Source: Geminocystis sp. M7585_C2015_104 (lineage in GTDB: Bacteria > Cyanobacteriota > Cyanobacteriia > Cyanobacteriales > Cyanobacteriaceae). From it: 37,846 nt of DNA. Numbering within the stretch: the first letter of the stretch is position 1; each line of letters begins with the position of its first letter. This document shows, in pieces, positions 2,946 through 26,348 of the stretch. The position numbers and the translations under genes are program-made. The stretch covers positions 1 to 37,846 of the forward strand of contig DVEF01000088.1 in assembly GCA_015295805.1 (NCBI GenBank), written 5' to 3'. Below the pieces are notes generated by a model. The model was not told where the DNA came from and made no database searches. It saw nothing but the letters and a program-made list of their open reading frames with translations.

Positions 2946-3521
2946 ATGAGCAATAATGAGTTAAAAGCCTTGGCAAAAGAGGTAAAAACCCAATTTACCA
3001 TCCTGGGCAGCATTGTGGCAGTTTTCTGGTTTGTGCACATTATCAATGCCACTTTTTTTAACTACCGTCTCAATTATTATGGCATCTCCCCCAGAAATTT
3101 AACAGGATTAAGGGGTGTGGTTTTCGCACCATTTTTACACGGAGATTATTTTCATCTTCTTGCCAACACTACCCCCTTTCTGATACTAGGTTTTTTATGC
3201 ATGCTAAGGGAGACTAGCGACTTCTTTGTTGTGAGTCTATTGTCCATGCTAACTAGTGGTTTGGGGGTTTGGCTTTTTTCGCCAAGATATTCTATCACAG
3301 TAGGGGCAAGTGGCGTTATTTTCGGCTACCTTGGCTTTCTGCTGTTTAGGGGTTTATTCAAAAAAAACATTCCTTCCATTGCTGTGTCTTTAATGGTATT
3401 TTTCCTCTACGGTAGCATGATTTGGGGGGTACTACCCTCTTCCCCCTATATATCTTGGCAAGGGCATTTTTTCGGCTTCCTCGGTGGTGTATTAGCCGCC
3501 AAATTACTTCCTAGCAAATAA
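2946..3521 (+). CDS. Rhomboid family intramembrane serine protease
   Basis: Rhomboid proteases cleave transmembrane substrates inside the bilayer. The 191-residue protein is almost entirely membrane helices, about six. The catalytic dyad is visible: GASG with Ser122 and GHFFG with His174. HLLAN (residues 70-74) supplies the conserved HxxxN of helix 2. The length fits the minimal six-helix bacterial rhomboid without extra domains. The substrate cannot be inferred. The ribE start codon follows 15 bp after the stop, so the two genes are probably co-transcribed, although no functional link between them is known to me. Confidence 0.93.
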   Translation: MSNNELKALAKEVKTQFTILGSIVAVFWFVHIINATFFNYRLNYYGISPRNLTGLRGVVFAPFLHGDYFHLLANTTPFLILGFLCMLRETSDFFVVSLLSMLTSGLGVWLFSPRYSITVGASGVIFGYLGFLLFRGLFKKNIPSIAVSLMVFFLYGSMIWGVLPSSPYISWQGHFFGFLGGVLAAKLLPSK

Positions 3522-24366: not shown

Positions 24367-24438
24367 TGGGTCGCCTGAGACTCGAACTCAGGACCAATCG
24401 GTTAAAAGCCGAGTGCTCTACCACTGAGCTAGCGACCC
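24367..24438 (-). tRNA. tRNA-Lys (anticodon UUU)
   Basis: The minus strand folds into a complete cloverleaf: acceptor stem GGGTCGC/GCGACCC, D-stem GCTC/GAGC, anticodon arm CTCGG-CTTTTAA-CCGAT with anticodon TTT, and T-arm CTGAG-TTCGAGT-CTCAG. The discriminator base is A and the CCA end is not encoded. It reads AAA and, by wobble, AAG codons. Its own promoter lies 40 bp upstream. Confidence 0.97.
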
Positions 24439-24477
24439 GTTTGTTGCGCCGTTTTGATGAGCCGCACAACGTCTACT

Positions 24478-24506
24478 ATTCTAACGCACTGAGAAAAAAA
24501 ATGCAA
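24478..24506 (-). promoter_or_regulatory. Promoter of tRNA-Lys(UUU)
   Basis: Minus strand: TTGCAT (24501-24506), 17-bp spacer, TAGAAT (24478-24483). The -35 box and the GTGCG in the spacer recur upstream of the second tRNA-Lys, which supports both calls. Confidence 0.7.
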
Positions 24507-24624
24507 GGGTTTTTAGTACTTTTTGAACATCCCGTGGCGCCACAAAAAAACCCCATCGCCCCCACCCATTCTTGACGTTCCAAACCCCCCATTCTTCTGA
24601 CAAAAGGGAAGGACAAAGGGAAGG

Positions 24625-24696
24625 GGGGTCGCCTGAGATTCGAACTCAGGACCCATCGGTTAAGAGCCGAGTGCTCTACCGCTGAGCTAGCGACCC
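24625..24696 (-). tRNA. tRNA-Lys (anticodon CUU)
   Basis: This is a near-copy of the neighbouring tRNA-Lys with a full cloverleaf. The anticodon loop is CTCTTAA, giving anticodon CTT, which reads only AAG. The acceptor, D, anticodon and T stems are all intact, with a few loop differences. The base after the acceptor stem (position 73) is C rather than the A of the other copy; the downstream sequence continues CC, so CCA is not encoded. Its promoter lies 37 bp upstream. Confidence 0.95.
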
Positions 24697-24732
24697 GTTT
24701 GTTGCGCTGTCTTGAAGAGCTCCCATTGAACA

Positions 24733-24762
24733 ATTGTAGCGCACCGGCCACAAGAAATGCAA
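24733..24762 (-). promoter_or_regulatory. Promoter of tRNA-Lys(CUU)
   Basis: Minus strand: TTGCAT (24757-24762), 18-bp spacer, TACAAT (24733-24738). It matches the promoter of the first tRNA-Lys in its -35 box and spacer GTGCG. It is divergent from comM, whose start codon is 69 bp away. Confidence 0.7.
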
Positions 24763-24830
24763 GGGGGGGTCTAGTTTTTTTGTTGAGTTGCCTCTAAACT
24801 GGGAGGGATAATAGTATAAGGGGGATTTCT

Positions 24831-26348
24831 ATGTTGAGTAGGGTTTGGAGTGGGGCCGTAGTAGGGATCGAGGGGGTAAAGGTTGGGGTGGAAGTGGATG
24901 TGGCTGGGGGGTTGCCCAAGACAATTATTGTAGGTTTGCCGGATACGGCAGTACAGGAGTCAAGGGAGAGGGTAAAGGCGGCTATTAGAAATTCTGGTTT
25001 TGCTTTCCCGGTAAGACAAATAACAGTCAATCTCTCTCCTGCTGACTTGCGCAAAGAAGGGCCTATTTTTGATTTGCCTATTGCCCTGGGGATTCTGGCT
25101 GCCTCCCAACAGGTGGAGTCTACCCACTTGTCTGACTATCTTTTTTTGGGAGAGGTGTCTCTAGATGGCAGTCTAAGGGGGGTTGCCGGTGTTTTGCCCA
25201 TGGCAGTGATGGCGGCTAGGTTGGGATTTCGAGGCATAGTTGTGCCTAAGGATAATGTCCAAGAGGCTGCAGTGGTGGAAGTACTAAAGGTGTATGGGTT
25301 TAATCACCTATTGGAGGTAACTCAGTTTTTGCAGAATCCCTCCCAGTTTCCCGTGGCTACCCCCAGAGTGGAACAAGAGGACATGGATACCAATTATGAC
25401 CTAGCTGATGTAAAAGGACAATACTCTGCCCGTAGGGCTTTGGAAATAGCGGCTGCTGGGGGACACAATCTGTTATTGGTGGGGCCTCCCGGTGCTGGTA
25501 AAACTATGTTAGCAAGAAGACTCCCCTCCATCCTCCCGCCCCTCTCCTTTGCAGAAGCTTTAGAGGTATCCCAGATTTACTCCGTAGCTGGCCTGTTGAA
25601 GGGCCGAAGTGGTTTAATTACCCAACGCCCCTTCCGTAGCCCCCATCATTCTGCCAGTGGTGTGGCACTAGTGGGGGGAGGCTCATTGCCAAAACCTGGG
25701 GAAATTTCCCTCTCCCATCACGGTGTTTTATTCCTGGACGAGTTAACGGAGTTCAAACGTAGTGTCTTAGAGTTTCTGCGTCAACCCCTAGAAGATGGAT
25801 TTGTCACCGTCTCCCGGGCTCGTCAAACAGTCTCCTTTCCTGCCCGTTTTACCCTTATTGCTAGCACCAACCCTTGTCCTTGTGGTTACTACGGCGATTC
25901 TCTCAAAGAATGCACCTGTTTTCCACGACAACGCCAACAATACTGGGCTAAACTGTCAGGCCCTTTACTTGACCGCATCGACCTACAAGTTGTAGTCAAC
26001 CGTCTTAAACCTGAGGAGATGCTCCAACAAAAGGCAAGGGAAGGTTCCCACTCGGTGAGGGAAAGGGTTATCGCCGCACGAGAAAGGGCAAGGATTCGCT
26101 TCCAGGACTACCACATCTCCTGTAATGCCCAGATGCAATCTCACCACCTGCGACAATTTTGCCCTCTGGATGACCACTGCCGTGGAATTCTCGATGGCGC
26201 TATCCGCAAATTAGGTCTTTCCGCCCGTGCCTTCGACCGTATTCTTAAAGTAGCCCGCACCATCGCCGACTTGGACTCCTCCCCCTCCCTCCAACCACAC
26301 CACCTCGCCGAGGCCATCCAATATCGTACTCTCGACCGTCTCCTCTAA
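24831..26348 (+). CDS. comM: YifB/ComM family Mg-chelatase-like AAA+ ATPase
   Basis: ComM is a hexameric helicase that promotes branch migration when incoming DNA is integrated during natural transformation. The 505-residue protein has the N-terminal Lon-like domain (residues 1-170, GLPDTAVQESRERVKAAI), the AAA+ core with Walker A GPPGAGKT at 218-225 and Walker B LFLDELTEF, a cysteine cluster NPCPCGYYGDSLKECTC, and the C-terminal Mg-chelatase subunit domain with LSARAFDRILKVARTIADL. An AAGGGGG ribosome-binding site precedes the ATG. It is not the chlorophyll Mg-chelatase ChlI, which lacks the N-terminal Lon-like domain. Its presence is compatible with natural competence but does not prove it. 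Confidence 0.93.
   Translation: MLSRVWSGAVVGIEGVKVGVEVDVAGGLPKTIIVGLPDTAVQESRERVKAAIRNSGFAFPVRQITVNLSPADLRKEGPIFDLPIALGILAASQQVESTHLSDYLFLGEVSLDGSLRGVAGVLPMAVMAARLGFRGIVVPKDNVQEAAVVEVLKVYGFNHLLEVTQFLQNPSQFPVATPRVEQEDMDTNYDLADVKGQYSARRALEIAAAGGHNLLLVGPPGAGKTMLARRLPSILPPLSFAEALEVSQIYSVAGLLKGRSGLITQRPFRSPHHSASGVALVGGGSLPKPGEISLSHHGVLFLDELTEFKRSVLEFLRQPLEDGFVTVSRARQTVSFPARFTLIASTNPCPCGYYGDSLKECTCFPRQRQQYWAKLSGPLLDRIDLQVVVNRLKPEEMLQQKAREGSHSVRERVIAARERARIRFQDYHISCNAQMQSHHLRQFCPLDDHCRGILDGAIRKLGLSARAFDRILKVARTIADLDSSPSLQPHHLAEAIQYRTLDRLL

Follow-up and report, generated by a model that had tools for sequence, protein, structure and literature searches.

A tRNA-Lys(CUU) gene that probably arose by tandem duplication and an anticodon switch in one cyanobacterial genus

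Two neighbouring tRNA-Lys genes, one with the anticodon UUU and the other with CUU, lie in the stretch of 37,846 nucleotides analysed here (the window), which is the entire contig C88 of a 2.82-Mb genome of Geminocystis sp. M7585_C2015_104 (G000; 108 contigs, 96.9% complete). We consider it very probable that a promoter and its tRNA-Lys gene were duplicated in tandem on the stem of the genus (g1), that one copy switched its anticodon in a setting of increased AAG use, and that a C at the discriminator position of that copy (C73) was tolerated by a class I lysyl-tRNA synthetase (LysRS).

Both ARAGORN and Rfam call the two genes that a sequence-only reading of the window had proposed, and the reported spacing of 258 bp is correct as a start-to-start distance, the intergenic gap being 186 bp (Table 1). 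The Rfam scores are 69.6 bits for the UUU and 63.5 bits for the CUU gene, against a gathering cut-off of 29, so that the latter combines a tRNA model score above the family cut-off with a CUU anticodon. ARAGORN starts the CUU gene at 24623; the coordinates in the table are counted with the discriminator base. The two bodies had been described as the same, and they are indeed closely alike, but they differ at 5 of 72 positions (UUU/CUU): one in the D-loop (T/C), the anticodon (T/C), position 44 (T/G), one in the T-loop (G/A) and position 73 (A/C), the last of which had been overlooked. A direct repeat (D1; 95 nt, 93%) comprises the tRNA gene and 24 nt of 5′ leader in both copies. BLAST between the copies gives 83% over 24626-24765, ending just past the -35 box, in agreement with the proposed unit of about 140 bp that holds promoter and gene together. 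Minimum-energy folding, which produced no clean cloverleaf for either of the genes, was left unused.

Table 1. Features of the tRNA-Lys gene pair and its neighbour in the window.
Feature	Coordinates	Strand	Details	Source
tRNA-Lys, anticodon UUU	24367..24438	-	A73	ARAGORN, Rfam
5′ leader of UUU gene	24439..24462	-	common to CUU gene	repeat D1
UUU promoter	24478..24506	-	TTGCAT 24506-24501, 17 nt spacer, TAGAAT 24483-24478	by eye
tRNA-Lys, anticodon CUU	24625..24696	-	C73	ARAGORN, Rfam
5′ leader of CUU gene	24697..24720	-		repeat D1
CUU promoter	24733..24762	-	TTGCAT 24762-24757, 18 nt spacer, TACAAT 24738-24733	by eye
comM-like gene	24831..26348	+	Mg-chelatase domains, divergent neighbour	Pfam

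The promoter boxes (TTGCAT with TAGAAT or TACAAT) were found again by eye. The promoter scanner that we used lists neither tRNA-Lys promoter, TTGCAT fitting its consensus at 3 of 6 positions; a -35 box of the TTGCA type also stands at the tRNA-Lys genes of other aligned family members. The boxes of the CUU gene are kept in the second species of the genus (G001), where they read TTGCAT, 18 nt and TATAAT and the leader has 16 nt more than in the window. When the 130 nt upstream of the two window genes were aligned, the score of 40 was reached by none of 1000 dinucleotide shuffles, and about 70 nt upstream are alike, which bears out the common 5′ flank of the earlier description. No alignment was obtained for the 120 nt downstream, for which 103 of 300 shuffles equalled the score. 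The upstream regions of the G001 pair barely align (19 of 1000 shuffles attain the score), so that flank homology between the neighbouring copies is clear in G000 and weak in G001.

To map the distribution of the gene, a pattern built on the window's CUU gene was run with up to three mismatches on 60 related genomes. CUU genes of the window type were found only in G000 and G001, both of genus g1. One of the 20 genomes matching this pattern (G044) does so through a tRNA-Asn, and three of the 60 (G015, G027 and G046) carry differently made CUU genes seen by a looser pattern only. Among the 13 other genomes of the family (f1), none has a window-type CUU gene and 11 have UUU alone; the two without any match are 63% and 67% complete, and a search of 5 of the 13 with the looser CUU pattern found nothing. 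The G001 CUU gene differs from that of the window at 1 of 72 positions and has C73 too, and the UUU genes of the two species are identical over 72 nt. The G001 contig with the pair (L026) is identical over 8000 bases to JAUQQP010000014.1 (Cyanobacteriota bacterium SRBZ.bins.94.201705), so the UUU/CUU pair is present in a separately assembled genome. The CUU gene is thus not an old gene of all relatives set in unrelated flanks, the finding that the sequence-only reading had named as speaking against it: among the f1 genomes searched it is confined to g1, and upstream it shares ancestry with the UUU gene.

The neighbourhood of the pair indicates which state is older. About 135 bp from the window's CUU gene stands a divergent gene that a profile assigns to the Mg-chelatase domains and that we take to be comM; the names rumA, cysS and gltB for genes, and Cyanobacteriia for the class, are likewise our own assumption. 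In both genomes of genus g4 (L028, L033), a single UUU gene lies at the same place, divergent to comM at about 150 bp. No comM was found beside tRNA-Lys at nine other f1 loci, two of them read for 1.5 kb on each side only, or at nine loci outside f1, most of them read for 1.5 kb on each side. The comM neighbourhood likely marks the ancestral place of tRNA-Lys. In a gltB protein tree of 17 rows, which omits G006 and G013 and represents G007 by a partial protein, g1 is sister to the 11 other f1 members used (100/100 and 100/99). Since the relatives have UUU only and the g4 UUU gene lies beside comM, UUU is the older state and CUU the derived one, which supports the suggested change of anticodon from TTT to CTT in one copy.

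In the order of events that we favour, a stretch with the promoter and the tRNA-Lys(UUU) gene beside comM would have been duplicated in tandem on the g1 stem. The copy nearest comM would then have changed T34 to C and acquired G44 and C73, giving a tRNA that would read AAG alone. The other copy would have remained UUU and would continue to decode AAA and AAG, a UUU tRNA normally reading both codons. A rise in G+C and in AAG use may have made an AAG reader worth keeping, and C73 would have been tolerable since f1 would charge tRNA-Lys by a class I LysRS, for which position 73 may be of little weight. If both tRNAs are expressed and charged, as we suppose, the decoding of AAA and AAG may be partly separated between them.

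Position 73 is C in the CUU gene of both g1 species, which thus lacks A73, the identity base of class II LysRS. Among genes that could be read over their whole length, the base is A in the 11 other f1 UUU genes and in all 11 CUU genes from other cyanobacteria (nine by script; L036 and L046 by eye). ARAGORN ends overrun in L036, L046 and the window, where position 73 was taken from direct reading, and the CUU genes of family f66 are known only as matches that end before this position. Class I LysRS was found above the Pfam cut-off in all five f1 genomes searched, which had completeness values of 97% for G000 and 99% for G001, and class II LysRS above cut-off in none of the five. Against TIGR00467 (cut-off 147.55), the G000 protein (G000:C79:46054-47037, L302) scored 341.7 bits and that of G001 359.3 bits, and the nearest solved chain to the former is 1irx, a lysyl-tRNA synthetase. 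The best class II LysRS-like match of G000 in the profile search was an AspRS. The only LysRS-checked genome among the other CUU carriers, G211, has class II LysRS and no class I LysRS above cut-off. The occurrence of class I LysRS without class II above cut-off in this cyanobacterial family is an observation in its own right; a 2006 survey, in the part consulted, seems to list nine cyanobacteria under LysRS2 (PMC1475646).

According to the excerpted text of a review, substitutions of A73 lower lysylation in the E. coli system, and A73 is marginal for the class I enzyme (LysRS-1) of Borrelia (PMC9976931). The identity rules for LysRS-1 come from Borrelia only, and the G2-U71 pair that is essential there is absent here. 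The class of LysRS may accordingly be linked to the tolerance of C73, but the rest of f1 keeps A73 with class I LysRS, so that this enzyme may allow C73 and does not force it. A more far-reaching version, which we hold to be possible although rather doubtful, is that class I LysRS freed position 73, that the tandem copy became an AAG-only tRNA with C73, and that the two tRNAs reading AAA and AAG came to be charged with unequal efficiency. If true, lysine codon choice would become a possible point of control.

Two of the five differences between the genes, together with the weak upstream likeness in G001, tell against a single-step history within g1. In the CUU gene the D-loop base is C and the T-loop base A. 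The same combination occurs in the UUU genes of g3 and g5 and in 7 of the 9 outgroup UUU genes with a full reading, whereas T and G are found in those of g1 and g4. From these bases, it would appear either that g1 and g4 changed alike independently, or that the duplication is older and was followed by several losses. In the latter case, the f1 ancestor would have had two tRNA-Lys copies, with C/A and T/G in the D- and T-loops; g4 would have kept the T/G copy, g3 and g5 the C/A copy and g1 both, its C/A copy becoming CUU. Such a history is also favoured by the comM neighbourhood, common to g1 and g4 alone among the loci tested and absent from the nine other f1 loci, and by the g4 UUU upstream region, which resembles the region upstream of the G000 UUU gene (score reached by 4 of 1000 shuffles) more closely than the one upstream of CUU (197 of 1000). 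However, g4 is nested next to the g5 genome G010 in the gltB tree (99/98), which would require several losses of the T/G copy. Among the matches listed, moreover, D-loop T is common in unrelated genomes, and T-loop G occurs in four genes, always with D-loop T, so that convergence is not hard to envisage. We regard the older duplication as unlikely. Independently of this question, none of those four tRNA-Lys genes, among the matches listed, has D-loop C, and perhaps there is a weak tertiary coupling between the two bases in cyanobacterial tRNA-Lys.

It is highly improbable that a tRNA-anchored integrative element imported or copied the CUU gene. This idea draws on G001, in which the UUU and CUU genes lie 1.15 kb apart with about 0.9 kb that holds fragments of a tyrosine-recombinase-like gene between them, that gene is present as a full copy on the 3′ side of UUU, and the sequence following the 3′ end of CUU matches its counterpart at tRNA-Arg(CCG) (77% over 303). 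The element-like sequence in this region bears on the spacing of the G001 pair. In the window, however, tblastn found no copy of the recombinase, and G000 matches it only in a short piece of a different contig, C4 (54% identity). The promoter of the CUU gene was copied as well, whereas site-specific integration at a tRNA 3′ end is not known to copy promoters. Since similar flanks stand beside many G001 tRNA genes, these sequences are more simply explained as later guests.

The G001 sequences merit description in themselves. The recombinase-like gene encodes 522 aa (L026:531-2099), the fragments between the Lys genes lie at 3029-3500 of the same contig, and relatives are located 3′ of a tRNA-Glu (L178) and a tRNA-Ser (L180). 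Family profiles and PDB sequences gave no usable match for this gene. In an alignment of 11 relatives, R285, K348 and R417 are kept in all 11 and H414, H440 and Y449 in 10; we take these conserved R, K, H, R, H and Y residues to be those of tyrosine recombinases, which is the basis of the name. Relatives at E 0.001 or better were found in 26 of 195 genomes of the order. As many as 26 of the 43 tRNA 3′ flanks of G001 share at least 35 nt with another flank, a few of the pairs being trivial overlaps, and 21 of the 43 are alike in register from the tRNA 3′ end (loci L026, L178, L180 and L235-L271). The corresponding number for shared flanks in G000 is 4 of 35, two of them belonging to the overlapping Lys pair. 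With a single G001 flank as query, 14 places were found in G001, counting the query, against none in G000 and one weak match in 12 other f1 genomes. For at least eight G001 tRNA genes, no more than 311 nt separate the 3′ side from the end of a contig, where about 0.3 would be expected under even placement. Judged from these features, the flanks look like members of a family of elements that anchor themselves on the 3′ side of tRNA genes. At L262 (minus strand, about 1200-1150), we saw by eye a stretch resembling a tRNA 3′ end and followed by the same element signature, possibly the remnant of an attachment site. The elements are perhaps, we presume, in the manner of tycheposons. These are mentioned in the excerpt of PMC10872708 consulted.

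Conservation between the two species indicates that the CUU gene is maintained. Three neighbouring genes show 230 differences between the two species over 578 fourfold-degenerate sites, a rate at which about 29 of the 72 positions of the CUU gene would be expected to differ instead of one (P 7e-15), so the gene is under selection. Such a comparison of sequences indicates that the gene is selected, but does not say what for. A decaying duplicate without function is highly improbable: C73 does break the identity rule known for class II LysRS (in the part of PMC9976931 consulted), but decay is at odds with a single difference set against 40% fourfold divergence, with promoter boxes retained in both species and with the tRNA score of the gene.

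The comparison of AAG and AAA usage, which the sequence-only reading had put forward, gave a higher AAG share in g1, but the effect is not specific to lysine. With roughly 5 to 38 kb sampled from each genome, the AAG share among lysine codons is 0.35 and 0.40 for the g1 genomes, compared with 0.10-0.21 for 12 other f1 genomes (pooled from rounded shares, 0.37 vs 0.15), and G+C is 0.45 in g1 against 0.31-0.39 in the other f1 genomes. The shares of CAG and GAG, however, are up in g1 about as much as that of AAG, and there is no anticodon CUG or CUC among the 43 tRNA genes found in G001 (the G000 set is incomplete, with 35 genes and no Ile or Asp gene). In addition, G021, a genome outside f1, has an AAG share of 0.39 and no CUU match. 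We therefore reject codon use as the sole cause and see it as a favourable setting.

CUU genes also occur outside the family, and the remark that many cyanobacteria have only the UUU gene stood in outline. The looser exact CUU pattern matched at least 11 of 186 genomes of the window's class, counted by hand; this is a lower bound on prevalence, as a like-built UUU pattern matched 119 of 184 class genomes only, one of these matches (G439) looking like chance. The CUU carriers are the g1 pair (G000, G001), seven genomes that share one anticodon-arm sequence (L039-L045, of which L045 alone sits in a tRNA array, as far as the retrieved stretches go), G027 (L036), where the gene is within a tRNA array, and G211 (L046), where CUU adjoins UUU. 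Of 200 genomes that belong to the phylum but not to this class, 121 matched the looser pattern, and CUU genes of different body occur in at least six genomes of family f66, among the matches listed. A scan exact for 21 bases located a CUU/UUU pair in L083 (uncultured cyanobacterium H1_Bin_Bin_12_1_1) and, in L070, a CUU gene on its own. CUU genes of other makes do exist: those of G211, L083, L070, L036, L039-L045 and f66 have the same anticodon as the window's gene on different bodies.

Two of these cases resemble the window in arrangement. In L083, CUU also stands beside UUU with an alike upstream flank (0 of 1000 mononucleotide shuffles), and the genes differ at 5 of 72 positions. The adjoining genes of G211, unlike those of the window, do not clearly resemble each other upstream (77 of 1000 mononucleotide shuffles attain the score) and differ at 9 of 72. 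We also noted two identical tRNA-Lys(UUU) genes, 153 bp start to start, at G506:C65:41675-41900 (L183); their upstream sequences are alike (0 of 1000 shuffles), and the pair has the look of a tandem duplication in which neither anticodon has yet changed. To judge by such pairs, local copying of tRNA-Lys has happened more than once among cyanobacteria, and CUU would have arisen in this way at least twice if L083 is counted.

Duplication followed by an anticodon switch has already been proposed in print, and g1 looks like a completed case. According to the portion consulted of work on Pseudomonas fluorescens SBW25, a new tRNA gene copy arose there, as in g1, through tandem duplication, and a later switch of T34 to C is raised, whose longer-term occurrence remains to be seen (PMC7661048). 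The SBW25 duplications, in the same portion, are large, belong to laboratory populations and involve no anticodon switch, whereas in g1 the recognisable copied stretch is about 140 nt, the case is natural, the switch is complete and it predates the split of two species. Isoacceptor shifts, which like the g1 change exchange U and C at the first anticodon base and leave the amino acid the same, are few among 61 Enterobacteriaceae (one or four, depending on the passage of the excerpted text), with position 44 among the sites that covary with them (PMC3923123). Position 44 differs in the g1 pair too (T and G, in our numbering), but in g1 the gene with the old anticodon persists next to the switched one, and position 73 has changed in addition. 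Our literature search found no paper on a tRNA-Lys CUU anticodon in cyanobacteria, and CUU goes unmentioned in PMC5733544 and PMC6902448. The g1 case is a known type of event, distinguished by its C73.

Bacteria are generally believed to enlarge their sets of tRNA genes through duplication and a switch of anticodon. Completed natural cases in which the unswitched gene is still alongside, the place is given by synteny and the new gene is conserved are few in the literature surveyed, as far as the excerpts consulted go. The g1 case may also connect an altered discriminator base with the synthetase class, a relation that can be tested in vitro, and the pair offers a natural example of the birth of a new kind of tRNA.
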